From Limnomonas spitsbergensis (taxonomy: Eukaryota > Chlorophyta > Chlorophyceae > Chlamydomonadales), in NCBI GenBank assembly GCA_037349105.1, contig JAYJMM010000111.1, forward strand, positions 2,890,001 to 2,954,000: 64,000 nt of DNA, given 5' to 3'. Shown piece by piece: positions 1 through 45,200 of the stretch. Position numbers and translations under genes: made by a program. Numbering within the stretch: the first letter of the stretch is position 1; every line of letters begins with the position of its first letter. The notes beneath the pieces are model-generated. The model worked only from the letters and a program-made list of their open reading frames with translations. It made no database searches and had not been told where the DNA came from.

Positions 1-167
1 TGAGACCTACTTGTGATATTAAAAAACCTGAACACTATGTCATATCTCATACCTGTCATTTTGAGAACCTTATAACCCCAAACCCCAGATCCTTAACCCT
101 ACACCCCATAACCCTTAACCCCACAACCTGTTACCCTACACCCTTGACCTACATCAATGCGGCATAC
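1..167 (-). other. Start of NIT1 intron 8
   Basis: Intronic sequence with CCCTAACCC-like telomere-related motifs at 75-150. On the minus strand a short resemblance to the end of exon 8 and its donor (AATGACAGGTATGAG) lies at about 50-62, the same kind of duplicated exon end seen in other introns of this gene. No exon seen. Confidence 0.55.
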
Positions 168-204
168 CTGTGATCTTGGTGAATGCTGAAGGCACAAGCA
201 AGAT
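168..204 (-). CDS. NIT1: NIT1 exon 8 ([10 protein letters not shown] block)
   Basis: Acceptor CGATCCACAG, 37 nt, donor GTATGC, phase 1 out. It reads [12 protein letters not shown] plus a split Gly codon, the expected continuation of MGAE from exon 7. The next block of the family (EAHWE-like) is not in the remaining 167 bases, so the gene runs off the left edge. Confidence 0.9.
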
Positions 205-3200
205 CTGTGGATCGGGGATCGGGGATGGGGGGATGGGGGGATGGGGTATGGGTAGATGGGGGGATGGGGGGATGGGGGGATGGGGGGATGGGGGGATGGG
301 GGGATGGGGGGATGGGGGGATGGGGGGATGGGGGGATGGGGGGATGGGGGGATGTGGGGATGTGGGGATGTGGGGATGTGGGGATGTGGGGATGTGGGGA
401 TGTGGGGATGTGGGGATGGGGGGATGGGGGGATGGGGGGATGTGGGGATGGGGGGGGGGGATGGGGGGATGGGGGGATGGGGGGATGGGGGGATGGGGGG
501 ATGGGGGGATGGGGGGATGGGGGGATGGGGGGATGGGGGGATGGGGGGATGGGGGGATGGGGGGATGGGGGGATGGGGGGATGGGGGGATGGGGGGATGG
601 GGGGATGGGGGGATGGGGGGATGGGGGGATGGGGGGATGGGGTATGGGGGGATGGGGGTATGGGGGGATGGGGGGATGGGGTATGGGTAGATGGGGGGAT
701 GGGGGGATGGGGGGATGGGGGGATGGAAGATGGGGGGATGGGGGGATGGGGGGATGGGGGGATGGGGGGATGGGGGGATGGGGGGATGGGGGGATGGGGG
801 GATGGGGGGATGGGGGGATGGGGGGATGGGGGAGGTGTCCTAGTCCGTACTGGGGGAGGTGTCCTCGCCCCCCATGTAGCAACCTTGCATGGCTTTCAAG
901 CAACCCTTAAGGGTCGCCATTTATGCATGCACATTTACCATGCAGAATGCTGGACTGTATTGATACGTTACGTTACGTGACGAAACGGGATTTTTTGCCC
1001 AATCGGGCCGTAATTTTTGTCCCTGCCCTACAACCTACCCCCTACCCCCTACACACTCCACACCCTACACACCCTACACTCTATACCCTACAACAGTATG
1101 GAAACCAATACAATATACAGGCTGAGAGAATATGGCCCCTCCTCCCCCCCTCACACTTCCCTCCCCCCACTGTCCTCTCCTCCCTCCCTCCCTCCCCCCC
1201 CCCTCCCTTCCCCCTTTCTCTCCCTCTCCCCTACCCCCCCCCCCCCCCCCCCCCCCCCATTTCAGCCCTCACCATCTCCCCCCTCCCCATCCATCTACCC
1301 ATCTACCTCAAGGCCCGATCTCCCCTGTCCGGCTTCTTCATTCTCCCCCTTCCACCTCCTCCCCCCAACCCCATCAGCCTCCCCCTTCCTTCCTTCACCC
1401 GTACTCCTCCCTCCTTCCACCTCCTCCCCCCAACCCCATCAGCCTGCCCTCCTCCCTCTATTCTCTCCCACCCACCTCAGCACCGATGTCCCATATCATT
1501 TCTGGTACAGCTCTGAGAATAGCATCTCAGAGCCCCCCCCTCTCCCCCCCTCCCCGTACTCCCACCCACATACCTCAACGCCCCCTCCCCCTCCTCCCCT
1601 CCCCCTCCGTCCCTCCTCCCTCCCCCTCCTTCCTCCGTCTCTCCCCCCTCAAACCTGCCAGCTTACCTTCCTCTCTTAATGCCAACCCACCCACCTCAGC
1701 ACCCATCTCCCAGGTCTGCTTCTGGTACAGCTCCGCGAAGAGCATCTCAGAGCCCCCCCTCTCCCCCCCTCCCCGCACACCTACCCACATACCTCAAAGC
1801 CCCTCCCCCCCTCCTCCCCTCCCCCTCCTCCCCTCCCCCTCCGTCCCTCCCCCCACAAACCTGCCAGCTTACCTTCCTCTCTACATGCCAACCCACCCAC
1901 CTCAGCACCCATCTCCCAGGTCAGCTTCTGGTACAGCTCCGGGAACCGCAAATCGTAGCAGACGCTAAGACCCAGCTTCCCGACTGGGCTGCGTCACAAC
2001 AACGAGCAACAAAATGGGACAAGTGGTTCGGGTAGCACACAATCACACATTGATTTGATGACCGGTAGCGTAAATGTATAATGTGCACTGTTTTGCATAA
2101 CGTGCACTGGTTTGAATGACATGCAAATCGTAGCGGATGTTGAGGCCCAGCTTAGTTCCCGACTGGGCTGCGTCACGCAATGAGGAGCAGCACATGGGTT
2201 CAGTGTTGGGCAATTGCACCGTAAAATGATTTCAGTGTACAACTTTGACTGACATTTTACTGTTTAAAATGACCGTAAAAGGACCGTAAATGGGCATTTT
2301 CTCCGTGCGTTGTTCACTTTCAATATCAAATCGTTTTAGGATGTACAAAGGCAGCCTTTCATCGACCCAGAATTTGTAAAACACATCGGCAGCATGTCAA
2401 ACTAGAAAAAATGTGTAAACCGTAGGGCACCGTAAGGACCGTCAATTGCCCAACACTGAATGGGTTTGAATAGCGATACCGGTATTAGTAGCGCATATTA
2501 AATTGAATGTCGTCCATTCATATTCGAATTATGTGCAGCGGTGCAAATCCTGGCAACCGCTGACGCCCCGCTTCCCGATTGAGCTGCGTCACAACAAGGA
2601 GCAACGGATGGCCTTGAATAAGGTGCGTTGATTTGAATAACGTGCGAATCGTAGCAGATGCTGCACGTGCTCACCTATCAAACACTGCCCGGCTGTCACC
2701 GGGTCCTGTTGCAATGCTCTCCTTGTGCTCACCTATCATACACTGCCAGGCTGTCGCCAGGCGCTGTTGTACGGCCCTCATTGTGCTCACCTATCACACA
2801 CTGCCAGGCTGTCACCAGGCGCTGTTGTACGGCCCTCATTGCGCTCACCTGTCTCACACTGCCAGGCTGTCACCAGGCGCTGTTGTCTGGCCCTCATTGT
2901 GCTCACCTATCACACACTGCCAGGCTGTCACCAGGCGCTGTTGTACGGCCCTCATTGCGCTCACCTATGACACACTGCCAGGCTGTTACCAGGCGCTGTT
3001 GTACGGCCCTCATTGTGCTCACCTGTCGCACACTGCCAGGCTGTCACCAGGCGCTGTTGTACGGCCCTCATTGTGCTCACCTATCACACACTGCCAGGCT
3101 GTCACCAGGCGCTGTTGTACGGCCCTCATTGTGCTCACCTATCACACACTGCCAGGCTGTCACCAGGCGCTGTTGTACGGCCCTCATTGTGCTCACCTAT

Positions 3201-6200
3201 CACACACTGCCAGGCTGTCACCAGGCGCTGTTGTACGGCCCTCATTGTGCTCACCTATCACACACTGCCAGGCTGTCACCAGGCGCTGTTGTACGGCCCT
3301 CATTGTGCTCACCTATCACACACTGCCAGGCTGTCACCAGGCGCTGTTGTACGGCCCTCATTGCGCTCACCTATCACACACTGCCAGGCTGTCACCAGGC
3401 GATGTTGTACGGCCCTCATTGTGCTCACCTGTCGCACACCGCCAGGCTGTCACCAGGCGCTGTTGTACGGCCCTCATTGCGCTCACCTGTCACACACTGC
3501 CAGGCTGTCACCAGGCGCTGTTGTACGGCCCTCATGGTGCTCACCTATCACACACTGCCAGGCTGTCACCAGGCGCTGTTGTACAGCCCTCATTGTGCTC
3601 ACCTATCACACACTGCCAGGCTGTCACCAGGCGCTGTTGTACGGCCCTCATGGTGCTCACCTATCACACACTGCCAGGCTGTCACCAGGCGCTGTTGTAC
3701 AGCCCTCATTGTGCTCACCTATCACACACTGCCAGGCTGTCACCAGGCGCTGTTGTACGGCCCTCGTTGTGCTCACCTATCACACACTGCCAGGCTGTCA
3801 CCGGGTCCTGTTGCAATGCTCTCCTTGTGCTCACCTATCATACACTGCCAGGCTGTCGCCAGGCGCTGTTGTACGGCCCTCATTGTGCTCACCTGTCTCA
3901 CACTGCCAGGCTGTCACCGGGTTCTGTTGCAATGCTCTCCTTGTGCTCACCTATCATACACTGCCAGGCTGTCGCCAGGCGCTGTTGTACGGCCCTCATT
4001 GTGCTCACCTGTCTCACACTGCCAGGCTGTCACCAGGCGCTGTTGTACGGCCCTCATTGTGCTCACCTATCATACACTGCCAGGCTGTCACCAGGCGCTG
4101 TTGTACGGCCCTCATTGTGCTCACCTATCACACACTGCCAGGCTGTCACCAGGCGCTGTTGTACGGCCCTCATTGTGCTCACCTATCACACACTGCCAGG
4201 CTGTCACCAGGCGCTGTTGTACGGCTCTCCATCAGGACCGGCCCATTAGGCACATCCACATCAAACAGGTGCACCTGGATGGGTGACGGGATGGGATAAA
4301 AGAGAGTGGGATGGGTTTGGAATAGGTTATTTGAGTTTGGAATGGTTTTGGGATGGTGTTTGGGATGGTTTTGAGGTGTGTTTGGGATGGTTTGGGGATG
4401 GTTTTGGGATGGTTTTGGGATGGTTTTGGGATGGTGTTTGAGATGGTGTTCGGGATACCTTCATCTTATAGTGCCTTTTTTTCTTTTTCTTTCTAAAAGC
4501 TCAAATTTGATGCGGAACTTAGGTGAAGTTTCGGTGGGGGGGTGCGGGGGGGCGCTCAAGCCCACCCGCCATGGGGGTCCGGGGGCCATCCCCCGGAGGG
4601 GGTTCAGGGGCGAAGCCCCCAAAGTTCAGAAACGGTCTCTCGTGAAACATCGTATTTCTTCATTGAAAATGCGTTATATTTAGTGTTCAAAGTCACACCA
4701 AGGTTGGGGCATAAGGTAACTTACTCAGCTGTCTAGTGCCAATAAGTCCTAGTTGCTACAAAGTTCAGCAACCATTCCTACTGCCCTGCTGGACCTTCCT
4801 GCATTCCTTCTGCTCTGGCCAGGCCCTTATGGCTTCCTTGTAGGGGAAGTTCCTGAGGGTGACCCTAGGATGGTGAAAGGCTCTAGCACACTGAGTCACG
4901 TGCCTCTGCTGCAGGCTCTTTCACTGCGGGTTCTTGATATTCTTGATGGCTGAGATCATCCGCTGGAGCATCATCTGCAGCACTGCCCGGAAGAGGACAT
5001 GCATCTCTGGCAGCTCTTCTTGTGCAGTCAGGCTTGTTTGCGTGCAGCACCAGAGTCGAAGCCTGCTGCAAAGGTCTGTCATGCTGCCGCCTTGACCTTG
5101 AACTCTGCTAGTTTCTTCTGATGGCGGCCTGTTCGTCCGTGCTCGACGACAGCGATGGTCATACGGTCCCGTATGACATTTTGTAATCCATACGGTGCGC
5201 CGTATGGATATTTCACTTACTTACAGTCATACGGTCCAGAGGGCAAATGTGTAAAACGTGTGGCCAGTTCCTATTTTTTCCTCGCAGCCTTCGTGGCACG
5301 TTGTGTTCCACGCGTTGGCGTTGTAAGCAGGGCTTAGATAAAGTTTTGCTTTAAGATCAAGGAAATGAAAACAGGCCTCCTAGCTAGCTTTTGTGGGCTG
5401 CGCCCCTGAACCCCCATTTTCAAAAAGCAGCACCACCGTACGGATCTTAAAACTTACTTACATGCGGTCAACATCCATACAGTGTATGGATACGGATACG
5501 CGTATGACCATCACTGCTTGACGATCGTGCCCAAAGTCCCGCTGTACACGTTGCAGAACTTGCAGTGCCACATGTACTTTGTTCGAGATGTCGTTTGAGG
5601 CTTAATTCAAGCTGTTGTTAAAGGCTTAAAGCCGCAATCAATCAGCCACTCCCTTCGCAAATCACCGTCTTATAAAGAAAGAAAGAAAGCTGCGCCCCGT
5701 GGGGGGAGTGATGAGAGTTAAGGAAACAGCGCAGCCTGGGCCATAGCCACATCCGCGCCGTTACCGTCTTCGAAGTAAAAGGTTCTTGGAAGGCATTCGT
5801 CCCAGAGCCCTTACTAAGAGTTCTCCAAGCGCCATCGCTATGGCCTTTCGCCGCCTTAATCTTTCATTTAACCCCTAGCGTCGGAATGGCAGTTTGAGAG
5901 GCAATCTCGGCAGTCACAAGTGCAGAATGCGAGAACCCTAGGTTTATCGTGCCGGCCAGCATCGCTTTACCCCCGTTTTATCGTGCCGGCTAGCGTCGAT
6001 TTACCCCCGTTTTATCGTGCCGGCCAGATCGATTTACCCCCGTTTTATCGTGCCGGCTAGCGTCGATTTACCCTCGTTATATCGTGCCGGCTAGCGTCGA
6101 TTTACCCCATTTTATCGTGCCGGCTAGCGTCGATTTACCCCCATTTTATCGTGCCGGCTAGCGTCGATTTACCCTCGTTATATCGTGCCGGCTAGCGTCG

Positions 6201-9200
6201 ATTTACCCCATTTTATCGTGACTCACGATATATCGAACCTTAAAATAACCACTGGCCCGGGTTAATGGATGTTTTTTCGTGTAATCAGGCTTTAGGGTTG
6301 GGAATCAGGGTTACAAGGGTCAAGGGATACACGGTGTGGGGGTGGGGTTAAGGGTTGAGGGTTTATGTTTGGGGATCAGGGGTTGGATATCGCATGGCAT
6401 GGTCACCTCCATGCAGCACAGCTCAGGCTTTATATTGCAGCTCTAAATGGTCGGGGTTCGGGGCTCGGCTCTTAACGGCAAGAGTTCAGGACTTCGCTGT
6501 CAGGGCTCAGGGCTCAGGGTTCAGGGTTCAGGGCTTGCAACCCACTGCGCCATACCTTCAGGTAGGTCAAGAGTTAAGAACTCGGGGTTGAGGGTTCAGG
6601 GTTCAGGGCTTGAAACCCACCGCGCCCTATCCTCCGGAAAGTCGAGGGTTTAGGGTTAGGGGTTTAGGGTTTAGGGTTCAGGGCTTGCAACCCATCGCGC
6701 CCTATCCTCCGGAAAGCCAAGGGTTTAGGGTTATGGGTTACGGGTTTGGGGCTTGCAACCCACCGCGCCCTATCCTCCGGAAAGTCAAGGGTTTAGGGTT
6801 ATGGGTTTAGGGTTTAGGGTTCAGGGCTTGCAACACATCGCGCCCTATCCTCCGGAAAGTCAAGGGTTTAGGGTTATGGGTTACGGGTTTGGGGCTTGCA
6901 ACCCACCGCGCCCTATCCTCCGGAAAGTCAAGGGTTTAGGGTTAAGAGTGTAGGGTTTGGGGCTTGCAACCCACTGCACCCTAGCTTCCGGTAGATCGAG
7001 GGTTTAGGGTTTAGGGGTCAGGGCTTGCAGGCCATTGCATCACACCTTCCGGTATGTTTTGGGTTTTGGGTGTAGGGTTTAGGTTTCAGGGCTTGCCACC
7101 CACTGTGCCCTACCTTCCGGTAGATCGAAACGATGTCGCCCTTGGAATCAATAATGACGTGGGTATTGTACCTGTCAAAGGAGGAGGAGGGGGGGGGGGG
7201 CAGGTGGGGGGGTGAGTGGGTGGGTGGGTGGGTGAGTGGGAGGAGGAGAGGGGGGGCAGACATGTGGGTGGGTGGGTGGGAGGAAGAAGAAAGGGGGGGG
7301 GGCAGGCAGGTGGGTGGATGGGTGGGTGGGTGGAAGGAGGAGAGGGGGGCAGACAGGTGGATGGGTGGGTGGGAGGAAGAAGAAAGGGGGGGGGGCAGGT
7401 GGGTGGGTGGGTGGGTGGGAGGAAGAGGAGAGGAGAAGCAGACAGGTGGGCGGGTGGGTGGGAGGAGGAGGAGAGGAGAAGCAGACAGGTGGGTGGGTGG
7501 GTGGGAGGAAGAAGAAAGGGGGGGGGGGAAGGCAGGTGGGTGGATGGGTGGGTGGGTGGAAGGAGGAGAGGGGGGCAGGCAGGCAGGTGGGTAGGTGGAT
7601 GGGTGGGAGGAGGAGGAGGGGGGGGGGCAGGTAGGCAGGTGGGTTGGTGGATGGGTGGTAGGAGGAACAGGGGGGGGGGCAGGCATGTGGGTGGGTGGGT
7701 GGGTGGGAGTAGGAGAGGGGGGCAGGCAGGTGGGCGGGTGGGTGGGTGGGTGGGTGGGAGGAGAGGGGGGCAGGCAGGTGGGTGGGTGGGTGGCAGGAGG
7801 AGAGGGGGGCGGGCAGGTGGGCGGGTGTGTGGGTGGATGGGAGGAAGAGAGGGGGGCAGGCAGGTGGTGGGTGGGTGGGTGGGTAGGAGGAGGAGAGGGG
7901 GGACAGGCGGGTAAGTGGGTGGGTGGGTGGGGGGGAGGAGGAGAGGGGGGGGGGGGGCATGCAGGTGGGTGGGTGGGTGGGCGGTTGGGAGGAGGAGAGG
8001 GGGGGCAGGCAGGTGGGTGGGTGGGAGGAGGAGAGGGGGGGCAGGCAGGTGGGTGGGTGGGAGGATAAGAGGGGGGAGGCAGGTGGGTGGGTGGGAGGAG
8101 GAGAGGGGGGCAGGCAGGTGGGTGGATGAGTAGGTGGGAGGAGGAGATGGGGGGAGTGGACAGGTGGGTGGGTGGGTGGGTGGGAGGAGGAGGGGGGGGC
8201 AGGCAGGTGGGTGAGTAGTGGGAGGAGGAGGAGAGGGGGGGCATGTGGGTGGGTGGGTGAGGGTAGGAGAGGGGGGCAGGTGGGTGGGTGGTGGGTATGA
8301 GGAGGGGAGGGGGGCAGGTGGGTGGGTGGTGGGTGGGAGTAGGAGAGGGGGGGCAGGTGGTGGGTGGTGGGTATGAGGAGGAGAGGGGGGCAGGTGGGTG
8401 GGTTGTGGGTATGAGGAGGAGAGGGGGGCAGGTGGGTGGGTGGTGGGTGGGAGTAGGAGAGGGGGGGCAGGTGGGTGGGTGGTGGGTGGGAGTAGGAGAG
8501 GGGGGGCAGGTGGGTGGGTGGTGGGTGGGAGTAGGAGAGGGGGGGGGGCAGGTGGGTGGGTGGTGGGTGGGAGTAGGAGAGGGGGGGCAGGTGGGTGGGT
8601 GGTGGGTATGCGGAGGAGAGGGGGGGCAGGTGGGTGGGTGGTGGGTGGGAGTAGGAGAGGGGGGGCAGGTGGTGGGTGGTGGGTGGGAGTAGGAGAGGGG
8701 GGCAGGTGGGTGGGTGGTGGGTGGGAGTAGGAGAGGGGGGGGGGGCAGGTGGGTGGGTGGTGGGTATGCGGAGGAGAGGGGGGCAGGTGGGTGGGTGGTG
8801 GGTGGGAGTAGGAGAGGGGGGCAGGTGGGTGGGTGGTGGGTGGGAGTAGGAGAGGGGGGGCAGGTGGTGGGTGGTGGGTATGAGGAGGAGAGGGGGGGCA
8901 GGTGGGTGAGTGGTGGGTATGCGGAGGAGAGGGGGGCAGGTGGGTGGGTGGTGGGTGGGAGTAGGAGAGGGGGGCAGGCAGGTGGGTGGGTGGGTGGCAG
9001 GAGGAGAGGGGGGCAGGCAGGTGGGCGGGTGAGTGGGTGGATGGGAGGAAGAGAGGGGGGCAGGCAGGTGGTGGGTGGGTGGGTGGGTAGGAGGAGGAGA
9101 GGGGGGACAGGCGGGTAAGTGGGTGGGTGGGTGGGGGGGAGGAGGAGAGGGGGGGGGGGGGCATGCAGGTGGGTGGGTGGGTGGGCGGTTGGGAGGAGGA

Positions 9201-12200: not shown

Positions 12201-15200
12201 GCGGCACAGTGGCGGCGTGGCAGGCAGGCAGGCAGGCAGGCGGCACAGTGGCGGCGTGGCAGGCATGTGATTAAGAGGAACAATGATGCGTGCACGTGTG
12301 TGACAGGCAAGCAGACAGGCAAGTGTGACAAGAAGAGTAACACTCACGGTACGGCCTTGCATTGCTGCTTTCAAATGCTTTGGACCTGGATCCGGGCCCT
12401 TCAGAAAACCTCCGCAAAACCTCTGCAAAAGTGTGACATTGCGTCAACAAGTGTTTCACAGGGTGTGGCCCTGCATGACAAATGCTTTTGACCGGGATGC
12501 TTCTTGTAGAAGTGTTCAAGTAAGTGCGGAACTGTGACATAAAGTATGAGACTGTGACATTAAGTGTGACCATAAATGTGTCACATGGTACGGCCCTGCA
12601 TGGCTGCTTACAAATGCTCCGGATCCGGGCCCTTCTCCTGGAAGCCCCCAAGCGACAGCCACAGCCCTTGGTCCCTACGCATCACAGAAGACAGCAGCAC
12701 CTTCACATGACCGGCACGACAGGAAAAAGTGTAGGGTTGAGGGCTTGGGGCACAAACCCTGAACCCTTGCTGAACTGGCGCGGCAGGAGAATATTTAGGG
12801 TTCATGGTATAGGGCATACATCCTAAACCCTTGCTCAAGTGGCACATCAGAAAAGTATGAAGGACATAGGGTGTGGGGCATAAACCCTCAACCTTTGTGT
12901 AAATGGAACGACAAGAACGTGTTTAGGGTGTGGGGAATAATCCTACAACCCTTGCATAACTGGCACGGCAGCAAAATGTCAAGGGATTAGGGTTAAGGGT
13001 AATCAACCCTCAACCTTGAACCCTGAACCCTCAACACTCCACCCTAAACCTTTAGATAAATGGCACGGCAAGAAAAGGCTGTTGGTTGGTTGGTTGGTTG
13101 GTAGGCTTTGCACAGGAGGGTGGGTGGAAAGGGACTAGCCGTTACGGGGCTTCTGTCCCAGCCCCGGATTCTCTTCAGGTTAAACACCACCCACCCTGAC
13201 ACAAATAAACCTGATTGCCTAATAACTGCTAATTGCTCCTCCTTCTACAGCTTGCATACAGTAGGGGGGGGAGCAACTAGGAGGGATTAGGGCTAATTTA
13301 CAGTAGGGGGGGCGGGGGGCAACTAGGAGGGATTAGGGCTAATTTACAGTAGGGGGGGCGGGGGGCAACTAGGAGGGATTAGGGCTTTATTTACAGTAGG
13401 GGGGGCGGGGGGCAACTAGGAGGGATTAGGGCTAATTTACAGTAGGGGGGGGCAGGGGGCAACTAGGAGGGATTAGGGCTAATTTACAGTAGGGGGGGGC
13501 GGGGGGCAACTAGGAGGGATTAGGGCTTTATTTACAGTAGGGGGGGCGGGGGGCAACTAGGAGGGATTAGGGCTTTATTTACAGTAGGGGGGCGGGGGGC
13601 AACTAGGAGGGATTAGGGCTTTATTTACAGTAAGGGGGGGCGGGGGGCAACTAGGAGGGATTAGGGCTAATTTACAGTAGGGGGGGCGGGGGGCAACTAG
13701 GAGGGATTAGGGCTAATTTACAGTAGGGGGGGCGGGGGGCAACTAGGAGGGATTAGGGCTAATTTACAGTAGGGGGGGCGGGGGGCAACTAGGAGGGATT
13801 AGGGCTAATTTACAGTAGGGGGGGGCGGGGGGCAACTAGGAGGGATTAGGGCTAATTTACAGTAGGGGGGGCGGGGGGCAACTAGGAGGGATTAGGGCTT
13901 TATTTACAGTAGGGGGGGCGTGGGGCAACTAGGAGGGATTAGGGCTAATTTACAGTAGGGGGGGGCGGGGGGCAACTAGGAGGGATTAGGGCTAATTTAC
14001 AGTAGGGGGGGGGGCGGGGGGCAACTAGGAGGGATTAGGGCTAATTTACAGTAGGGGGGGGCGGGGGGCAACTAGGAGGGATTAGGGCTTTATTTACAGT
14101 AGGGGGGGCGTGGGGCAACTAGGAGGGATTAGGGCTAATTTACAGTAGGGGGGGGGCGGGGGGCAACTAGGAGGGATTAGGGCTAATTTACAGTAGGGGG
14201 GGGGGCGGGGGGCAACTAGGAGGGATTAGGGCTAATTTACAGTAGGGGGGGGCGGGGGGCAACTAGGAGGGATTAGGGCTAATTTACAGTAGGGGGGGCG
14301 GGGGGCAACTAGGAGGGATTAGGGCTAATTTACAGTAGGGGGGGGCGGGGGGCAACTAGGAGGGATTAGGGCTTTATTTACAGTAGGGGGGGCGGGGGGC
14401 AACTAGGAGGGATTAGGGCTAATTTACAGTAGGGGGGGCGGGGGGCAACTAGGAGGGATTAGGGCTTTATTTACAGTAGGGGGGGCGGGGGGCAACTAGG
14501 AGGGATTAGGGCTAATTTACAGTAGGGGGGGCGGGGGGCAACTAGGAGGGATTAGGGCTAATTTACAGTAGGGGGGGGCGGGGGGCAACTAGGAGGGATT
14601 AGGGCTAATTTACAGTAGGGGGGGCGGGGGGCAACTAGGAGGGATTAGGGCTAATTTACAGTAGGGGGGGCGGGGGGCAACTAGGAGGGATTAGGGCTAA
14701 TTTACAGTAGGGGGGGCGGGGGGCAACTAGGAGGGATTAGGGCTAATTTACAGTAGGGGGGGCGGGGGGCAACTAGGAGGGATTAGGGCTAATTTACAGT
14801 AGGGGGGGCGGGGGGCAACTAGGAGGGATTAGGGCTAATTTACAGTAGGGGGGGGGGGGGGCAACTAGGAGGGATTAGGGCTAATTTACAGTAGGGGGGG
14901 CGGGGGGCAACTAGGAGGGATTAGGGCTAATTTACAGTAGGGGGGGCGGGGGGCAACTAGGAGGGATTAGGGCTTTATTTACAGTAGGGGGGGCGGGGGG
15001 CAACTAGGAGGGATTAGGGCTAATTTACAGTAGGGGGGGCGGGGGGCAACTAGGAGGGATTAGGGCTAATTTACAGTAGGGGGGGGGGGCGGGGGGCAAC
15101 TAGGAGGGATTAGGGCTAATTTACAGTAGGGGGGGGCGGGGGGCAACTAGGAGGGATTAGGGCTTATTTACAGTAGGGGGGGCGGGGGGCAACTAGGAGG

Positions 15201-30200: not shown

Positions 30201-33200
30201 GCTAATTTACAGTAGGGGGGGGCGGGGGCAACTAGGAGGGATTAGGGCTTTATTTACAGTAGGGGGGGGCGGGGGGCAACTAGGAGGGATTAGGGCTAAT
30301 TTACAGTAGGGGGGGGCGGGGGGCAACTAGGAGGGATTAGGGCTAATTTACAGTAGGGGGGGCGGGGGGCACTAGGAGGGATTAGGGCTAATTTACAGTA
30401 GGGGGGGGCGGGGGGCAACTAGGAGGGATTAGGGCTAATTTACAGTAGGGGGGGCGGGGGGCAACTAGGAGGGATTAGGGCTAATTTACAGTAGGGGGGG
30501 CGGGGGGCAACTAGGAGGGATTAGGGCTAATTTACAGTAGGGGGGGCGGGGGGCAACTAGGAGGGATTAGGGCTAATTTACAGTAGGGGGGGCGGGGGGC
30601 AGCTAGGAGGGATTAGGGCTAATTTACAGTAGGGGGGGCGGGGGGCAACTAGGAGGGATTAGGGCTTTATTTACAGTAGGGGGGGGCGGGGGGCAACTAG
30701 GAGGGATTAGGGCTAATTTACAGTAGGGGGGGCGGGGGGCAACTAGGAGGGATTAGGGCTAATTTACAGTAGGGGGGGGCGGGGGGCAACTAGGAGGGAT
30801 TAGGGCTAATTTACAGTAGGGGGGGCGGGGGGCAACTAGGAGGGATTAGGGCTAATTTACAGTAGGGGGGGCGGGGGGCAACTAGGAGGGATTAGGGCTA
30901 ATTTACAGTAGGGGGGGGCGGGGGGCAACTAGGAGGGATTAGGGCTAATTTACAGTAGGGGGGGGCGGGGGGCAACTAGGAGGGATTAGGGCTAATTTAC
31001 AGTAGGGGGGGGCGGGGGGCAACTAGGAGGGATTAGGGCTAATTTACAGTAGGGGGGGGCGGGGGGCAACTAGGAGGGATTAGGGCTAATTTACAGTAGG
31101 GGGGGGCGGGGGGCAACTAGGAGGGATTAGGGCTAATTTACAGTAGGGGGGGGCGGGGGCAACTAGGAGGGATTCGGGCTTTATTTACAGTAGGGGGGGC
31201 GGGGGGCAACTAGGAGGGATTAGGGCTAATTTACAGTAGGGGGGGCGGGGGGCAACTAGGAGGGATTAGGGCTAATTTACAGTAGGGGGGGCGGGGGGCA
31301 ACTAGGAGGGATTAGGGCTAATTTACAGTAGGGGGGGCGGGGGGCAACTAGGAGGGATTAGGGCTAATTTACAGTAGGGGGGGCGGGGGGCAACTAGGAG
31401 GGATTAGGGCTAATTTACAGTAGGGGGGGGCGGGGGGCAACTAGGAGGGATTAGGGCTAATTTACAGTGGGGGGGCGGGGGGCAACTAGGAGGGATTAGG
31501 GCTAATTTACAGTAGGGGGGGGCGGGGGCAACTAGGAGGGATTCGGGCTTTATTTACAGTAGGGGGGGCGGGGGGCAACTAGGAGGGATTAGGGCTAATT
31601 TACAGTAGGGGGGGGCGGGGGGCAACTAGGAGGGATTAGGGCTAATTTACAGTAGGGGGGGGCGGGGGGCAACTAGGAGGGATCAGGGCTAATTTACAGT
31701 AGGGGGGGGCGGGGGGCAACTAGGAGGGATTAGGGCTAATTTACAGTAGGGGGGGGCGGGGGCAACTAGGAGGGATTCGGGCTTTATTTACAGTAGGGGG
31801 GGCGGGGGGCAACTAGGAGGGATTAGGGCTTTATTTACAGTAGGGGGGGGCGGGGGGCAACTAGGAGGGATTAGGGCTTTATTTACAGTAGGGGGGGCGG
31901 GGGGCAACTAGGAGGGATTAGGGCTAATTTACAGTAGGGGGGGCGGGGGGCAACAAGAAGGGATTAGGGCTAATTTACAGTAGGGGGGGCGGGGGGCAAC
32001 TAGGAGGGATTAGGGCTAATTTACAGTAGGGGGGGCGGGGGGCAACTAGGAGGGATTAGGGCTAATTTACAGTAGGGGGGGGGGCGGGGGGCAACTAGGA
32101 GGGATTAGGGCTAATTTACAGTAGGGGGGGCGGGGGGCAACTAGGAGGGATTAGGGCTTTATTTACAGTAGGGCGGGCGGGGGGCAACTAGGAGGGATTA
32201 GGGCTTTATTTACAGTTGGGGGGGCGGGGGGCAACTAGGAGGGATTAGGGCTAATTTACAGTAGGGGGGGGCGGGGGGCAACTAGGAGGGATTAGGGCTA
32301 ATTTACAGTAGGGGGGGGCGGGGGGCAACTAGGAGGGATTAGGGCTAATTTACAGTAGGGGGGGCGGGGGGCAACTAGGAGGGATTAGGGCTAATTTACA
32401 GTAGGGGGGGGCGGGGGGCAACTAGGAGGGATTAGGGCTAATTTACAGTAGGGGGGGGCGGGGGGCAACTAGGAGGGATTAGGGCTTTATTTACAGTAGG
32501 GGGGGCGGGGGGCAACTAGGAGGGATTAGGGCTAATTTACAGTAGGGGGGGGCGGGGGGCAACTAGGAGGGATTAGGGGTTTATTTACAGTAGGGGGGGG
32601 CGGGGGCAACTAGGAGGGATAAGGACTTTATTTAAAGTAGGGGGGGGCGGGGGGCAACTAGGAGGGATTAGGGCTAATTTACAGTAGGGGGGGGCGGGGG
32701 GCAACTAGGAGGGATTAGGGCTAATTTACAGTAGGGGGGGCGGGGGGCACTAGGAGGGATTAGGGCTAATTTACAGTAGGGGGGGCGGGGGGCAACTAGG
32801 AGGGATTAGGGCTAATTTACAGTAGGGGGGGCGGGGGGCAACTAGGAGGGATTAGGGCTAATTTACAGTAGGGGGGGGGGCGGGGGGCAACTAGGAGGGA
32901 TTAGGGCTAATTTACAGTAGGGGGGCGGGGGGCAACTAGGAGGGATTAGGGCTAATTTACAGTAGGGGGGGCGGGGGGCAACTAGGAGGGATTAGGGCTA
33001 ATTTACAGTAGGGGGGGCGGGGGGCAACTAGGAGGGATTAGGGCTAATTTACAGTAGGGGGGGCGGGGGGAACTAGGAGGGATTAGGGCTAATTTACAGT
33101 ATGGGGGGGCGGGGGGCAACTAGGAGGGATTAGGGCTAATTTACAGTAGGGGGGGGCGGGGGGCAACTAGGAGGGATTCGGGCTTTATTTACAGTAGGGG

Positions 33201-36200
33201 GGGCGGGGGGCAACTAGGAGGGATTAGGGCTTTATTTACAGTAGGGGGGGGCGGGGGGCAACTAGGAGGGATTAGGGCTTTATTTACAGTAGGGGGGGCG
33301 GGGGGCAACTAGGAGGGATTAGGGCTAATTTACAGTAGGGGGGGGCGGGGGGCAACTAGGAGGGATTAGGGCTAATTTACAGTAGGGGGGGCGGGGGGCA
33401 ACTAGGAGGGATTAGGGCTAATTTACAGTAGGGGGGGGCGGGGGGCAACTAGGAGGGATTAGGGCTTTATTTACAGTAGGGGGGGCGGGGGGCAACTAGG
33501 AGGGATTAGGGCTAATTTACAGTAGGGGGGGCGGGGGGCAACTAGGAGGGATTAGGGCTAATTTACAGTAGGGGGGGCGGGGGGCAACTAGGAGGGATTA
33601 GGGCTAATTTACAGTAGGGGGGGCGGGGGGCAACTAGGAGGGATTAGGGCTAATTTACAGTAGGGGGGGCGGGGGGCAACTAGGAGGGATTAGGGCTAAT
33701 TTACAGTAGGGGGGGCGGGGGGCAACTAGGAGGGATTAGGGCTAATTTACAGTAGGGGGGGGCGGGGGGCAACTAGGAGGGATTAGGGCTAATTTACAGT
33801 AGGGGGGGCGGGGGGCAACTAGGAGGGATTAGGGCTAATTTACAGTAGGGGGGGGGCGGGGGGCAACTAGGAGGGATTAGGGCTAATTTACAGTAGGGGG
33901 GGGCGGGGGGCAACTAGGAGGGATTAGGGCTAATTTACAGTAGGGGGGGGCGGGGGGCAACTAGGAGGGATTAGGGCTTTATTTACAGTAGGGGGGGCGG
34001 GGGGCAACTAGGAGGGATTAGGGCTTTATTTACAGTAGGGGGGGGCGGGGGGCAACTAGGAGGGATTAGGGCTTTATTTACAGTAGGGGGGGGCGGGGGG
34101 CAACTAGGAGGGATTAGGGCTAATTTACAGTAGGGGGGGGCGGGGGGCAACTAGGAGGGATTAGGGCTTTATTTACAGTAGGGGGGGCGGGGGGCAACTA
34201 GGAGGGATTAGGGCTAATTTACAGTAGGGGGGGGCGGGGGGCAACTAGGAGGGATTAGGGCTTTATTTACAGTAGGGGGGGCGGGGGGCAACTAGGAGGG
34301 ATTAGGGCTAATTTACAGTAGGGGGGCGGGGGGCAACTAGGAGGGATTAGGGCTAATTTACAGTAGGGGGGGCGGGGGGCAACTAGGAGGGATTAGGGCT
34401 AATTTACAGTAGGGGGGGCGGGGGGCAACTAGGAGGGATTAGGGCTAATTTACAGTAGGGGGGCGGGGGGCAACTAGGAGGGATTAGGGCTAATTTACAG
34501 TAGGGGGGGCGGGGGGCAACTAGGAGGGATTAGGGCTAATTTACAGTAGGGGGGGCGGGGGGCAACTAGGAGGGATTAGGGCTAATTTACAGTAGGGGGG
34601 GCGGGGGGCAACTAGGAGGGATTAGGGCTAATTTACAGTAGGGGGGGGCGGGGGGCAACTAGGAGGGATTAGGGCTAATTTACAGTAGGGGGGGCGGGGG
34701 GCAACTAGGAGGGATTAGGGCTTTCTTTACAGTAGGGGGGGCGGGGGGCAACTAGGAGGGATTAGGGCTAATTTACAGTAGGGGGGGCGGGGGGCAACTA
34801 GGAGGGATTAGGGCTAATTTACAGTAGGGGGGGCGGGGGGCAACTAGGAGGGATTAGGGCTAATTTACAGTAGGGGGGGCGGGGGGCAACTAGGAGGGAT
34901 TAGGGCTAATTTACAGTAGGGGGGGCGGGGGGCAACTAGGAGGGATTAGGGCTAATTTACAGTAGGGGGGGCGGGGGGCAACTAGGAGGGATTAGGGCTA
35001 ATTTACAGTAGGGGGGGGCGGGGGGAACTAGGAGGGATTAGGGCTAATTTACAGTAGGGGGGGCGGGGGGCAACTAGGAGGGATTAGGGCTAATTTACAG
35101 TAGGGGGGGCGGGGGGCAACTAGGAGGGATTAGGGCTAATTTACAGTAGGGGGGGCGGGGGGCAACTAGGAGGGATTAGGGCTTTATTTACAGTAGGGGG
35201 GGCGGGGGGCAACTAGGAGGGATTAGGGCTAATTTACAGTAGGGGGGGCGGGGGGCAACTAGGAGGGATTAGGGCTAATTTACAGTAGGGGGGGCGGGGG
35301 GCAACTAGGAGGGATTAGGGCTAATTTACAGTAGGGGGGGCGGGGGGCAACTAGGAGGGATTAGGGCTTTATTTACAGTAGGGGGGGCGGGGGGCAACTA
35401 GGAGGGATTAGGGCTTTATTTACAGTAGGGGGGGGCGGGGGGCAACTAGGAGGAATTAGGGCTTTATTTACAGTAGGGGGGGGCGGGGGGCAACTAGGAG
35501 GGATTAGGGCTAATTTACAGTAGGGGGGGGCGGGGGGCAACTAGGAGGGATTAGGGCTTTATTTACAGTAGGGGGGGCGGGGGGCAACTAGGAGGGATTA
35601 GGGCTTTATTTACAGTAGGGGGGGCGGGGGGCAACTAGGAGGGATTAGGGCTAATTTACAGTAGGGGGGGGCGGGGGGCAACTAGGAGGGATTAGGGCTT
35701 TATTTACAGTAGGGGGGGCGGGGGGCAACTAGGAGGGATAAGGGCTAATTTACAGTAGGGGGGGGCGGGGGGCAACTAGGAGGGATTAGGGCTTTATTTA
35801 CAGTAGGGGGGGCGGGGGGCAACTAGGAGGGATTAGGGCTAATTTACAGTAGGGGGGGCGGGGGGCAACTAGGAGGGATTAGGGCTAATTTACAGTAGGG
35901 GGGGGCGGGGGGCAACTAGGAGGGATTAGGGCTAATTTACAGTAGGGGGGGGCGGGGGGCAACTAGGAGGGATTAGGGCTTTATTTACAGTAGGGGGGGC
36001 GGGGGGCAACTAGGAGGGATTAGGGCTAATTTACAGTAGGGGGGGCGGGGGGCAACTAGGAGGGATTAGGGCTAATTTACAGTAGGGGGGGCGGGGGGCA
36101 ACTAGGAGGGATTAGGGCTAATTTACAGTAGGGGGGGCGGGGGGCAAGTAGGAGGGATTAGGGCTTTATTTACAGTAGGGGGGGGCGGGGGGCAACTAGG

Positions 36201-39200
36201 AGGGATTAGGGCTTTATTTACAGTAGGGGGGGGCGGGGGGCAACTAGGAGGGATTAGGGCTAATTTACAGTAGGGGGGGGCGGGGGGCAACTAGGAGGGA
36301 TTAGGGCTTTATTTACAGTAGGGGGGGCGGGGGGCAACTAGGAGGGATTAGGGCTAATTTACAGTAGGGGGGGGCGGGGGGCAACTAGGAGGGATTAGGG
36401 CTAATTTACAGTAGGGGGGGCGGGGGGCACTAGGAGGGATTAGGGCTAATTTACAGTAGGGGGGGCGGGGGGCAACTAGGAGGGATTAGGGCTAATTTAC
36501 AGTAGGGGGGGCGGGGGGCAACTAGGAGGGATTAGGGCTAATTTACAGTAGGGGGGGCGGGGGGCAACTAGGAGGGATTAGGGCTAATTTACAGTAGGGG
36601 GGGGGGCGGGGGGCAACTAGGAGGGATTAGGGCTAATTTACAGTAGGGGGGGCGGGGGGCAACTAGGAGGGATTAGGGCTTTCTTTACAGTAGGGGGGGC
36701 GGGGGGCAACTAGGAGGGATTAGGGCTAATTTACAGTAGGGGGGGCGGGGGGCAACTAGGAGGGATTAGGGCTAATTTACAGTAGGGGGGGCGGGGGGCA
36801 ACTAGGAGGGATTAGGGCTAATTTACAGTAGGGGGGGCGGGGGGCAACTAGGAGGGATTAGGGCTAATTTACAGTAGGGGGGGCGGGGGGCAACTAGGAG
36901 GGATTAGGGCTAATTTACAGTAGGGGGGGGGCGGGGGGAACTAGGAGGGATTAGGGCTAATTTACAGTAGGGGGGGCGGGGGGCAACTAGGAGGGATTAG
37001 GGCTAATTTACAGTAGGGGGGGCGGGGGGCAACTAGGAGGGATTAGGGCTAATTTACAGTAGGGGGGGCGGGGGGCAACTAGGAGGGATTAGGGCTTTAT
37101 TTACAGTAGGGGGGGCGGGGGGCAACTAGGAGGGATTAGGGCTAATTTACAGTAGGGGGGGCGGGGGGCAACTAGGAGGGATTAGGGCTAATTTACAGTA
37201 GGGGGGGCGGGGGGCAACTAGGAGGGATTAGGGCTGATTTACAGTAGGGGGGGCGGGGGGCAACTAGGAGGGATTAGGGCTAATTTACAGTAGGGGGGGC
37301 GGGGGGCAACTAGGAGGGATTAGGGCTTTATTTACAGTAGGGGGGGCGGGGGGCAACTAGGAGGGATTAGGGCTTTATTTACAGTAGGGGGGGGCGGGGG
37401 GCAACTAGGAGGAATTAGGGCTTTATTTACAGTAGGGGGGGGCGGGGGGCAACTAGGAGGGATTAGGGCTAATTTACAGTAGGGGGGGGCGGGGGGCAAC
37501 TAGGAGGGATTAGGGCTTTATTTACAGTAGGGGGGGCGGGGGGCAACTAGGAGGGATTAGGGCTTTATTTACAGTAGGGGGGGCGGGGGGCAACTAGGAG
37601 GGATAAGGGCTAATTTACAGTAGGGGGGGGCGGGGGGCAACTAGGAGGGATTAGGGCTTTATTTACAGTAGGGGGGGCGGGGGGCAACTAGGAGGGATTA
37701 GGGCTAATTTACAGTAGGGGGGGCGGGGGGCAACTAGGAGGGATTAGGGCTAATTTACAGTAGGGGGGGGCGGGGGGCAACTAGGAGGGATTAGGGCTAA
37801 TTTACAGTAGGGGGGGGCGGGGGGCAACTAGGAGGGATTAGGGCTTTATTTACAGTAGGGGGGGCGGGGGGCAACTAGGAGGGATTAGGGCTAATTTACA
37901 GTAGGGGGGGCGGGGGGCAACTAGGAGGGATTAGGGCTTTATTTACAGTAGGGGGGGCGGGGGGCAACTAGGAGGGATTAGGGCTAATTTACAGTAGGGG
38001 GGGCGTGGGGCAACTAGGAGGTATTAGTGCTAATTTACAGTAGGGGGGGGCGGGGGGCAACTAGGAGGGATTAGGGCTAATTTACAGTAGGGGGGGCGGG
38101 GGGCAACTAGGAGGGATTCGGGCTTTATTTACAGTAGGGGGGGCGGGGGGCAACTAGGAGGGATTAGGGCTTTATTTACAGTAGGGGGGGGCGGGGGGCA
38201 ACTAGGAGGGATTAGGGCTTTATTTACAGTAGGGGGGGCGGGGGGCAACTAGGAGGGATTAGGGCTAATTTACAGTAGGGGGGGGCGGGGGGCAACTAGG
38301 TGGGATTAGGGCTTTATTTACAGTAGGGGGGGCGGGGGGCAACTAGGAGGGATTAGGGCTTTATTTACAGTAAGGGGGGGCGGGGGGCAACTAGGAGGGA
38401 TTAGGGCTAATTTACAGTAGGGGGGGGCGGGGGGCAACTAGGAGGGATAAGGGCTTTATTTACAGTAGGGGGGGCGGGGGGCAACTAGGAGGGATTAGGG
38501 CTTTATTTACAGTAGGGGGGGCGGGGGGCAACTAGGAGGGATTAGGGCTTTATTTACAGTAGGGGGGGCGGGGGGCAACTAGGAGGGATTAGGGCTAATT
38601 TACAGTAGGGGGGGCGGGGGGCAACTAGGAGGGATTAGGGCTAATTTACAGTAGGGGGGGGCGGGGGGCAACTAGGAGGGATTAGGGCTAATTTACAGTA
38701 GGGGGGGGCGGGGGGCAACTAGGAGGGATTAGGGCTAATTTACAGTAGGGGGGGCGGGGGGCAACTAGGAGGGATTAGGGCTAATTTACAGTAGGGGGGG
38801 CGGGGGGCAACTAGGAGGGATTAGGGCTAATTTACAGTAGGGGGGGCGGGGGGCAACTAGGAGGGATTAGGGCTAATTTACAGTAGGGGGGCGGGGGGCA
38901 ACTAGGAGGGATTAGGGCTTTATTTACAGTAGGGGGGGCGGGGGGCAACTAGGAGGGATTAGGGCTTTATTTACAGTAGGGGGGGCGGGGGGCAACTAGG
39001 AGGGATTAGGGCTAATTTACAGTAGGGGGGGCGGGGGGCAACTAGGAGGGATTAGGGCTAATTTACAGTAGGGGGGGGCGGGGGGCAACTAGGAGGGATT
39101 AGGGCTAATTTACAGTAGGGGGGGGCGGGGGGCAACTAGGAGGGATTAGGGCTAATTTACAGTAGGGGGGCGGGGGGCAACTAGGAGGGATTAGGGCTTT

Positions 39201-42200
39201 ATTTACAGTAGGGGGGCGGGGGGCAACTAGGAGGGATTAGGGCTAATTTACAGTAGGGGGGGCGGGGGGCAACTAGGAGGGATTAGGGCTAATTTACAGT
39301 AGGGGGGGGCGGGGGGCAACTAGGAGGGATTAGGGCTAATTTACAGTAGGGGGGGCGGGGGGCAACTAGGAGGGATTAGGGCTAATTTACAGTAGGGGGG
39401 GCAAGGGGGCAACTAGGAGGGATTAGGGCTAATTTACAGTAGGGGGGGCGGGGGGCACTAGGAGGGATTAGGGCTTTATTTACAGTAGGGGGGGCGGGGG
39501 GCAACTAGGAGGGATTAGGGCTAATTTACAGTAGGGGGGGCGGGGGGCACTAGGAGGGATTAGGGCTTTATTTACAGTAGGGGGGGGCGGGGGGCAACTA
39601 GGAGGGATTAGGGCTAATTTACAGTAGGGGGGGGCGGGGGGCAACTAGGAGGGATTAGGGCTAATTTACAGTAGGGGGGGCGGGGGGCAACTAGGAGGGA
39701 TTAGGGCTTTATTTACAGTAGGGGGGGGCGGGGGGCAACTAGGAGGGATTAGGGCTAATTTACAGTAGGGGGGGCGGGGGGCAACTAGGAGGGATTAGGG
39801 CTAATTTACAGTAGGGGGGGCGGGGGGCAACTAGGAGGGATTAGGGCTTTATTTACAGTAGGGGGGGGCGGGGGGCAACTAGGAGGGATTAGGGCTTTAT
39901 TTACAGTAGGGGGGGCGGGGGGCAACTAGGAGGGATTAGGGCTAATTTACAGTAGGGGGGGCGGGGGGCAACTAGGAGGGATTAGGGCTAATTTACAGTA
40001 GGGGGGGCGGGGGGCAACTAGGAGGGATTAGGGCTAATTTACAGTAGGGGGGGCGGGGGGCAACTAGGAGGGATTAGGGCTAATTTACAGTAGGGGGGGC
40101 GGGGGGCAACTAGGAGGGATTAGGGCTAATTTACAGTAGGGGGGGCGGGGGGCAACTAGGAGGGATTAGGGCTAATTTACAGTAGGGGGGGCGGGGGGCA
40201 ACTAGGAGGGATAAGGGCTAATTTTCTAGGCAGAGGGCTTGATCAGCTGAACTGAGCAGCTGTTCAGAATAAATCAGAGCCAAGCTGCGCCACCCGTATG
40301 TTGATGAGGGGCCACATTTTAATTGGCAGAGGGCTGGAGTGGCTGAATTGTAGCCGAGCCACCGTTATGTTGACAGGGACACCTTATCATCCTTCAGCTT
40401 AAAAGGCATATGTAAGATGTGAGCTTCATACTACGAAAGTATGAATGTGCTGATTAATCGGGATCCACGCATCTGAGCAACTTCTGGGCAATTGTGCGTG
40501 ACTCGGTATAAACTAACATTTATGTATCAATTAAACGAATTGCGGGACCCAACAGATTGACCAAGGCAACCTTTCTGTTTCGGTACATGTACAACCACAG
40601 CCTTGAATCCTGCTTAATCACCCCACCCCCGGCCCACCCCCCTGGGCCATCCCCCCTTCCCACCCCCCTGGGCCACCCCCCTGACCCACCCCTCTGGCCC
40701 ATCCCTCTGGCCCACCCCATGGCCCACCCATCTGGCCCACCCCTCTGGCCCACCCCTCTGGCCTACCCCCATGGCCCACCCCTCTGGCCCACCACATGGC
40801 CCACCCCTCTTGCCCACCCCTCTGGCCCACTCCCATGGCCCACCCCTCTTGCCCACCCCTCTTGCCCACCCCTCTGGCCCACCCCCATGGCCCACCCCTC
40901 TAGCCCACCCTTCTGGCCCACCCACCTGGCCCACCCCCAAGGCCCACCCCTCTGACCCATCCATCTGGCCCATCCCCATGGCCCACCCCTCTGGCCCACC
41001 CCCCTGGCCCACCTCTCTGGCCCACCCCCATGGCCCACCCCTCTGGCCCACCCCCATGGCCCACCCACATGGCCCACCACATGGCCCACCCCTCTTGCCC
41101 ACCCCTCTGGCCCACCCCCATGGCCCACCCCTCTGGCCCACCCACCTGGCCCACCCCTCTGGCCCACCCCTCTGGCCCACCCCCATGGCCCATCCATCTG
41201 GCCCACCCATCTGGCCCACCCCCATGGCCCACCCCTCTGGCCCACCTCTCTGGCCCACCCCCATGGCCCACCCCTCTGGCCCACCCCCATGGCCCACCCC
41301 TATGGCCCACCCTCCTAGCCCAACCCCCCTGGCCCGCTCCCTTGGCCCAGCCGCTGGACGAACCGCTCACGAAGCTTTACTGCCAGCTGGCGGCAGCCAA
41401 GGCCTCTGGCTGCCCCCTGGCCCTCATTCCACCTCCCCCCTTTCCCCTGTCCCACTCACCTGGCCAGCTGGCAGTATTGCTTCATGAGCGGGCCGTCCAG
41501 CGGCTGGGCGGCGGCCAGGGACTCTGGCTGCGCTGATCCGATGAATGAGAAACACTCGGGTAGGAAGAGCATTACGCAACCCGACAGCACAGAGCTCTGG
41601 AAGTAAAGGGGGGAGGCAGCGGGAAGTGGGCATTATTGGCATGTCTTAAGCCCGCATTCTTTATTTTTAATTGATGGATGACAAATATGCGGGCAGGAAT
41701 AGTATAACGCAACCCAACAGCACAGAGCTCTGGAAGTAAAGGGGGGAGGCAGCGGGAAGTGGGCATTATTGGCATATATTAAGCCCGCATTCTTTATTTT
41801 TAATTGATGGATGACAAACATTCGGGCAGGAATAGTATAACGCAACCCAACAGCACAGAGCACATGAAAGGAGGGAGGCAGCGGAAAGTGGGCATTATTG
41901 GCATATTTTGCAGGCAATATTAATTTGTAACTGTCTTAATTTGTAACTTTTAATTGATGAATTACAAACATTTCGGAGGAACAGTATTGCTTAGCCCGAC
42001 AGCACAGAGCTCTGGAAAGGGGGGAGGCAGCGGGGAGATGTTTCTTATATTTGCCTGTGTCTGTTGAACTGTCCATGTCTATATAAATATGCCGTAGATC
42101 GAGATGGAGGAGGAGGACTATGCTGAGTACTGCTGACCGTGTACTGTCCTTCCCAGCATGCATCAAACGAGGGTTTTGACAGAGTATGACTGTACTGGCT

Positions 42201-45200
42201 GAAAGCGCTGCACGGACGGAAATTTAAATGATTGTAACTGATGCGCGATGTTCAATTAAATTACCTGCTGCGGGGCATTTAATTAAATTACATATTTGCC
42301 GCTGCACGGCCGTTTCTTGATTACTCTTTTAGCTGCGCGACTAAAATTTAAATGATTTTGGGGGGGGGTGCGGACCCTTTGTCGATTTACGGTATTATAT
42401 ATATATATACTGGTATACCGTTCGTATTTAAAATTTATGATTGACGAAATTAAATACAACATAAAATAAAAAGGAGGGCAAAGCAGATCTGCAGTATCTC
42501 TCAAGTTGGAAAACCGTAGGCCAGACCCGGCACAAGCAAGATAGCAGGATGACAGACAGTGCTGTGCAATTGCGCCATACTTCAGGAAGCGTGTAATTGA
42601 TTATCAGGGCTTTGTACTGGAAAAAGTACCTGAAGTACCTAAAGTACCTGAAGTACCTGAATCTGCCGCTTACTGGTACAAGTATTTGAATCTGACCTGA
42701 AATTACGGTGACTGCAACTCAGCTACTTCATTCAGCCACCTTCAGGACCGTAATCAGCACAGCACTGGCGGCAATATATAGGCGAAAAGGGCATTGCTGT
42801 GCAGCTGCCCTCCCTTAACCCTAAACCCTGCACCCCTAACACTGCACCCTAACCTTAAACCCCACATACATCATCAGCCAGGACTGCTTGTCTCTGCTTG
42901 CCGCTGGCGTGTTAGGAATTTGGCCGCCTGGTCACCAGGAGCCGTCCTCTGCGCCCGTAAACCTTAACCTTGCGGGGCGATTAGGGTTTATGGTTTAACC
43001 ATTTACACTTAACCCTAAACCCTAAACCGGAACCTTGCGGGGTGATTATGCCTGCGTCCTACACCTTGCGCCCTAAACCCTGCACCCCAAACCCTTGGAT
43101 CACTTCTGCCAGCTGCCTGCAGGTCAGGAAGCTGGCTGGCAGATCCCCAACAGCCGCCATCTGCGCCCTCAACCCTCAACCCTGCACCCTCAACCTGTTA
43201 CCCTCAAGACGTCACCTGCTGGTCACTGCTCACTTCCACTAGCCGCTTGCAGCTCAGGTTGGTCGCCTGGTCTCCAGCAGCCATCACCTGTACCCTCAAC
43301 CCTGCGTCCTGAGACCTAAACCCTGTACCCTAAACCTTGGGTTCAGGGTTTAGGGTTCAGGGTTTAGGGTTAAGGGTTTTAGGGTTGAACCCTGTGCCAC
43401 AGACTCTGGCAACATGATAAACCGCAACTGCTCACTTCTGTCAACCGCTTACAGGTCGGGATATTTGCCGTCAGGTCCCAAACAGCTGTACTCTGTGCCC
43501 TAAACCCTTCGTCCTAAACTCTGACACCACGATCTGCTGTGACTGCTCGCTTCTGCTAGCCGCTTGTTAGCCAGGGAGTTGGCTGTCTAGTCCCGATCAG
43601 CCGACATCTATGCCCTGCACCCGTAACCCTGCGCCCTTAACGCTGTGCCCCTCACCCTACTCTCACCTCTGCTAGCCGCTTGCAAGTCAGGAAATTGGTC
43701 ACATGGTCCCCAACGGCCGTCATCTGCCCCACTGCCACCCTGGGCCAAGGCTTGGCGGCCACCTGCAAGGATTCAAGGGTTTAGGGTTTGTTAGGGTTAG
43801 GGTTAGTGTTTGTTAGGGTTAGGGTTAGGGTTTGTTAGGGTTAGGGTTTGTTAGGGTTAGGGTTAGTGTTTGTTAGGGTTAGGGTTAGGGTCTGTTAGGG
43901 TTCGGGTAAGGGTTTGTAAGGGTTGGGGTTAGGGGTTCAGGTTACAGTTGTCCTTTGGGGTAAGGAGAGGTTGGGAATGGGGGGAAGGTTTATTGCAGTA
44001 ATACCAACAGTAGATAGATATTTGAGTCGAAGGGTATGGGTAAAGACTGAGAGCAGAGGGTTCATGCCGATGTGTAAATGTGTTTGATGGTCTAAGGTCT
44101 AGGGTTTAGGGTTAGGTTTTAGGGTAAGCGGTTGGACGTGAAGGAGAAGGGGTAAAGTATACATTGGAATCGCATTCCATAGGGTATTCATTATAGTTTA
44201 GGGTTCAGGGTTAAGGTTAAGGGTTTCAGGTTTGGGTTGAGGGTTGGGGTTGAGGGTTAAGGGTATTGGAATCACCTTCCCTAGGATATTCTTGTAAATG
44301 TCCACATGAATAACACATGGTTATGGGTATTCACATTGTTCACACATATATTTCCTTTAAATTGGAATTCAAAACCTGTGAGACTGGCCGCCCCACCCTT
44401 CAAACCTGAGACATTTCCAAAAAAACAGGCTAGGTGTGCTTGGCCCCACTCGTATGGTCCCATGCAAACAGGCAGCATGGTCAGAGCCTCAAGCGTATGG
44501 TCCCATGCACACATGCAGCATGGTCAAAGCTCCATGCGTATGGTCCCTTGCACACATGCAGCATGGTCAGAGCCCCATGCGTATGGTCCCATGCACACAT
44601 GCAGCATGGTCAGACGCTCATATGTATGGTCCCATGCATACATGCAGCATGGTCAGAGCCCCATGCGTATGGTACCATGCATACATGCAGCATGGTCAGA
44701 GCCTCATATGTATGGTCCCATGCACACATGCAGCATGGTCAAAGCCTCATACGTATGGTCCCATGCACTCATGCAGCATGGTCAAAGCCTCATACGTATG
44801 GTCCCATGCACACATGCAGCATGGTCAAAGCCCCATGCGTATGGTCCCATGCATACATGCAGCATGGTCAGAGCCCCATGCGTATGGTACCATGCAATCA
44901 TGCAGCATAGTCAGAGCCCCATACGTATGGTCCCATGCACACATGCAGCATGGTCAGAGCCTCATACATATGGTCCCATGCACACATGCAGCATGGTCAG
45001 GGCCTCATACATATGGTCCCATGCACACATGCAGCATGGTCAGAGCCTCATACGTATGGTCCCATGCACACATGCAGCATGGTCAGAGCCTCATATGTAT
45101 GGTCCCATGCACACATGCAGCATGGTCAAAGCCTCATACGTATGGTCCCATGCACACATGCAGCATGGTCAAAGCCTCATACGTATGGTCCCATGCACAC

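Follow-up and report, generated by a model that had tools for sequence, protein, structure and literature searches.

The closest described systems are the mirages of amphioxus, minisatellite-like tandem repeats that extend across 5′ or 3′ exon–intron boundaries in the Adh3, globin, troponin C, and PGBD5 genes, with units of ~10–160 bp, many of which carry splice signals, and with splicing reported to be undisturbed (PMC3087553, PMC3902484). Internal tandem repeats and minisatellite expansion at exon–intron boundaries have been reported in human duplicated genes (PMC2812944), and intron gain through tandem genomic duplication in potato (PMC4974935). Tandem repeats of Chlamydomonas and Volvox are reported to be more frequent toward intron ends (PMC3887541), and core-Reinhardtinia algae have atypical intron lengths, the driving mechanism of which was left open in that report (PMC8226300). 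No report of algal mirages was found in the open-licence literature. The initial annotation of the locus considered here described introns that begin with copies of the preceding exon's end and knew of no named class for them; the amphioxus reports had already supplied the name, for 5′ and 3′ boundaries alike. The copies at the exon borders of the NIT1 gene of Limnomonas spitsbergensis are real and belong to this known kind, which they extend to a new lineage, where several gene families have them.

The window, that is, the whole stretch of DNA analysed, comprises 64,000 nt of contig JAYJMM010000111.1 (positions 2,890,001–2,954,000, forward strand) in assembly GCA_037349105.1; the genome examined amounts to 260.2 Mb in 124 contigs and was reportedly assembled from PacBio data and polished (PMC11228838). 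NIT1, encoded on the minus strand, extends past the edge of the window. Its exons 2–10 were located via homology, reading frame, and GT/AG signals (Table 1). All eight introns between these exons start with GT and end with AG, the joined frame is free of stops, and an alignment with seven homologs contains no gaps at the eight junctions; the top database match is from Chlamydomonas eustigma (77%). Intron 3, 28.8 kb in length, is mostly filled by an array of a 46-bp unit, for which no exon origin was seen. Elsewhere in the window, positions 51100–51420 on the minus strand resemble, by eye, a histone H2A-type gene, and positions 52576–52820 hold ~8 perfect copies of a 30-bp unit.

Table 1 Coordinates of NIT1 exons, border copies, and other repeats within the window
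Feature	Position	Strand	Remarks
NIT1 exon 2	43667..43762	-	homology, frame, splice signals
NIT1 exon 3	41460..41596	-	homology, frame, splice signals
NIT1 exon 4	12612..12674	-	homology, frame, splice signals
NIT1 exon 5	7114..7171	-	homology, frame, splice signals
NIT1 exon 6	4183..4274	-	homology, frame, splice signals
NIT1 exon 7	1901..1988	-	homology, frame, splice signals
NIT1 exon 8	168..204	-	homology, frame, splice signals
Diverged copies of exon 2 end	42892..43609	-	4 by DNA, one more by protein only
Exon 2 end copies by DNA	43546-43609, 43229-43290, 43051-43167, 42892-42955	-	
Exon 2 end copy by protein only	43397-43495	-	
Inverted copy of exon 3 end	41345..41391	+	47 bp, 89%; border not crossed
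Copy of exon 4 end and donor region	12321..12389	-	1 copy; 17 exon and 50 intron bases; GT lost
Copies of exon 5 end and donor region	6503..6999	-	3 copies; 13-15 exon bases in each
Donor-spanning array after exon 6	2667..4182	-	58-bp unit, 26 copies
Copies of exon 7 end and donor	1410..1753	-	2 downstream copies; 206-bp unit, 59 exon bases
Copies of acceptor and exon 3 start	41673..42037	-	three upstream copies; 133-bp unit
Copies of exon 7 start and acceptor	2123..2605	-	two upstream copies (2123-2176, 2543-2605)
Array of 46-bp unit	13264..40224	no strand	27 kb, ~579 copies; fills most of NIT1 intron 3
bL34 intron 1 repeats	47688..47840	+	4 and 0 exon bases from exon 1 donor

DNA probes placed across each NIT1 exon–intron border recovered same-strand donor-side copies downstream of exons 2, 4, 5, 6, 7, and 9, that is, at six of the eight donors. 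Each of the 26 copies in the exon 6 array includes 47 exon bases, and all 26 keep the GT. The four copies of the exon 2 end detected by DNA contain 53 intron bases in one case and 5, 5, and 0 in the others, so that one alone clearly spans the border. Exon 9, located beyond the window, is followed by a single weak copy (21 exon and 42 intron bases, E 9e-6). With the same probes, exon 8 gave no donor match at E 0.05 and no acceptor copies, and the exon 3 donor gave no same-strand copy, only an inverted one. Thus, the arrangement which the initial annotation had placed after exons 2, 4, 5, 6, 7, and 8 was recovered after all of these except exon 8, and the units straddle the border and carry exon bases, as it had proposed, at exons 4, 5, 6, and 7 and clearly so in just one copy at exon 2. 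Its extension to both introns of the neighbouring bL34 gene held up only weakly: the repeats in intron 1 include at most four exon bases and are therefore effectively intronic, and the exon 2 donor yielded one 22-bp match (E 0.007). Telomere-like CCCTAAA or TTTAGGG motifs were noticed by eye between the exon-derived copies at window positions 42760–43660 and 6500–7050.

Introns also end in copies of the start of the next exon. Such copies are found at three of the nine NIT1 acceptors, those of exons 3, 7, and 9, the last of which is preceded by nine copies beyond the window. Border-spanning alignments numbered 81 in total, or 74 at 22 borders after removal of a double count of exon 9, and in none of these 74, some of which may overlap one copy, did the copy lie on the exon side.

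At 38 of the 49 NIT1 copy borders, ~26 of them in the exon 6 array, the GT/GC or AG is intact. Splicing would introduce a stop at 37 of these sites and a frameshift at the remaining one, from which we infer that NIT1 must rely on the exon-proximal site, as exon definition predicts. Exon 6 is followed by 27 near-identical donors, the real one and its 26 copies; judged by the reading frame, a readable protein results from the first of these alone. Splice-border arrays such as this one represent natural competition tests between near-identical splice sites. The intact sites, including the GT kept throughout the exon 6 array, would be expected if border copies were retained for a function, for example, as decoy splice sites tuning splicing or expression. 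However, averaged over borders, the GT and AG positions are not better kept than the adjoining ones, for which reason conservation of decoy sites was rejected, and border copies, at the frequencies given below, are no commoner than copies in flanks or introns. Retention for function is accordingly improbable.

The NIT1 copies are far from a chance expectation: 9 of 16 borders have them, compared with 2 of 320 in dinucleotide-shuffled introns (introns longer than 6 kb were reduced to the 6 kb adjoining the border). When a single criterion is applied throughout, local copies cover 9 of 17 NIT1 borders, no more than the 58 of 110 points within NIT1 introns, while in the rest of the window 2 of 42 points are covered. 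Two of five NIT1 exon midpoints are also covered, those of exons 2 and 7, both of which lie less than 50 bases from a border since these exons are shorter than 100 bp. To obtain a broader sample, exons of the TCP1, kinesin, and nitrilase families were collected; at least 216 matches were listed, 76 of them with 1500-base flanks, and removal of NIT1 exon 9 left 75 exons in 37 gene clusters. To be counted, an alignment had to extend 12 bases beyond the point in both directions, with E 1e-4 as the threshold and a range of ~1500 bases. Copies were found at 9 of 74 acceptors, in every case upstream, and at 3 of 73 donors, in every case downstream, the donors having been set by consensus, so that some may be misplaced. 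None of 67 exon middles was covered, as opposed to 102 of 882 flank points. A looser listing of the sample gave donor-side copies at 6 exons and acceptor-side copies at 13, the latter including NIT1 exon 9. Coverage fades within exons: at 75–100 bases from the border, it drops to 0–1 of 73 on the acceptor side and to 1–2 of 72 per direction on the donor side. Exons with acceptor copies have repeat-richer surroundings (downstream flank coverage of 29% versus 12%).

These counts bear directly on the process that the initial annotation had envisaged, namely, slippage or repair specific to donor junctions which extends introns from their start. Pooled sampled borders exceed exon middles (12/147 versus 0/67, Fisher p 0.02), but not flank points. 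On the refuting comparison that the initial annotation had itself named, with copies of other exon or intron segments, flanking sequence speaks against its reading and exon middles do not. Bootstrapping over genes placed acceptors level with the flanks and above donors, whereas donors were significantly below the flanks, with an interval excluding equality. Given these acceptor, donor, and flank frequencies, copying is neither 5′-specific nor subject to a hotspot at borders. NIT1 itself shows the reverse of the sample, with donors affected more often than acceptors, and its donors stand out against the sampled ones (6/8 versus 3/73, p 7e-6), as do its borders taken together (p 2e-5), although both comparisons are post hoc, the gene having been chosen for its repeats. 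The excess at NIT1 donors speaks for a donor-specific process, which nevertheless is very unlikely, considering that the sample has acceptor copies as often as donor copies or more often, and that they occur at exons 3, 7, and 9 of NIT1 as well. What stands of the earlier proposal is its generality: the copies recur in several genes and differ between paralogs, although not as growth from the 5′ splice site.

Three acceptors, labelled by profile position, were compared in a TCP1-family pair encoded on C39 and C99. At acceptor 316, both genes have an upstream copy. At acceptor 382, C99 has several copies, with diagnostic bases matching its own exon in 17 cases and the paralog in 3 (9 own, 1 paralog, and 1 neither for the nearest copy), whereas C39 has only a 21-bp match; judged by these bases, the C99 copies are either younger than the gene duplication or converted. 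Acceptor 440 has a copy in C39 only, and because its diagnostic bases are ambiguous (2 own, 1 paralog, 4 neither), C99 may have lost its counterpart. Of two kinesin paralogs on C124, one carries nine 89-bp units (the exon edge and eight copies) across a donor, and no such array was detected in the other by pairwise comparison, where it may have been lost. The array-bearing exon has, by eye, a GC donor (CAG|GCAAGT) that is repeated in the array copies. The two paralogs (C124:7568700-7572300, with the array, and 7584050-7587000) share several near-identical exons, with much of their introns unalignable, as if gene conversion keeps mainly the exons alike.

A hint of polarity was also seen, the youngest copy apparently being the one closest to the exon. 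Among borders with at least two copies, nearer copies are closer to the exon in sequence at 13 of 14, compared with 40 of 61 control arrays inside introns, a marginal difference (p = 0.053) with controls that partly overlap one another. The similarity of the exon to the nearest copy exceeds that of the nearest copy to the next at 12 of the 14 borders (41 versus 16 among controls), a measure biased upward because the exon itself is conserved.

False expansion of the repeats during assembly is very unlikely. The near-identical arrays of exon 6 and of the kinesin gene could have a wrong copy number; however, the assembly is a polished PacBio one, as noted above, and many copies are only 70–90% like the exon and hence represent separate sequences. 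Finally, introners, according to one report present in 5% of the species that were searched (PMC9860276), or other mobile elements making or entering splice sites can be virtually dismissed, given that every unit contains the coding sequence of its own gene and that, of two NIT1 units searched against the genome, the exon 3 array matched only itself and the exon 6 unit only its own array, a search that skips very common words, so that locus-only matches are not proof of rarity. Introner identity was rejected for these two units, dispersal at many loci being the property they lacked.

Collectively, the repeats are probably mirages, that is, local tandem duplications with a unit that happens to straddle the exon–intron border, selection keeping the exon-proximal site in use. 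Duplications would arise at similar rates everywhere and would be removed by selection when located within exons. Those crossing a border would persist, as splicing would continue at the exon-proximal site and the extra copy would turn into intron. The exon edge, being held intact by selection, would constitute a lasting seed, beside which new copies would form while older ones are shifted inward and decay, such that introns lengthen from both ends. Splice-border copying looks like one of the ways in which introns get longer. Several points weigh against this scheme: donors have copies less often than flank points, an outcome not expected from mere tolerance; NIT1 favours donors and the sample acceptors; two NIT1 exon midpoints are covered as well; the polarity is just marginally stronger than in the control arrays; and the inverted copy at exon 3 is at odds with tandem duplication. 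A more far-reaching and rather doubtful extension is that exon edges are permanent seeds of a two-ended conveyor, a ratchet enabled by exon-proximal site choice (exon definition) to which chlamydomonadalean algae would owe many of their long introns as one of the main sources.

As in amphioxus mirages, the units span the exon–intron boundary, here at 9 of 17 NIT1 and 12 of 147 sampled borders, either boundary is affected in NIT1 and in the sample, the units of 58, 89, 133, and 206 bp fall in the minisatellite range, and undisturbed splicing, reported in amphioxus, would in NIT1 be required by the reading frame. As to the length instability of mirages between haplotypes or cells, the variation observed here is between paralogs. 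The present case differs in that it concerns a green alga and several gene families, with units of 58–206 bp in up to 26 copies. The repeats of Chlamydomonas and Volvox are described by their positions and motifs; those considered here are units that include exon bases. Human boundary repeats can reportedly alter splicing and form introns, whereas the NIT1 copies would break the frame if used. The intron gain reported in potato likewise involves a tandemly duplicated segment that carries splice signals; here, existing introns lengthen and no new intron is shown. New in the present case are the algal occurrence of mirages, their sampled frequency with controls, and the hint that the youngest copy lies nearest the exon. 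Splice-border minisatellites thus extend beyond amphioxus and would provide a concrete route for intron lengthening.
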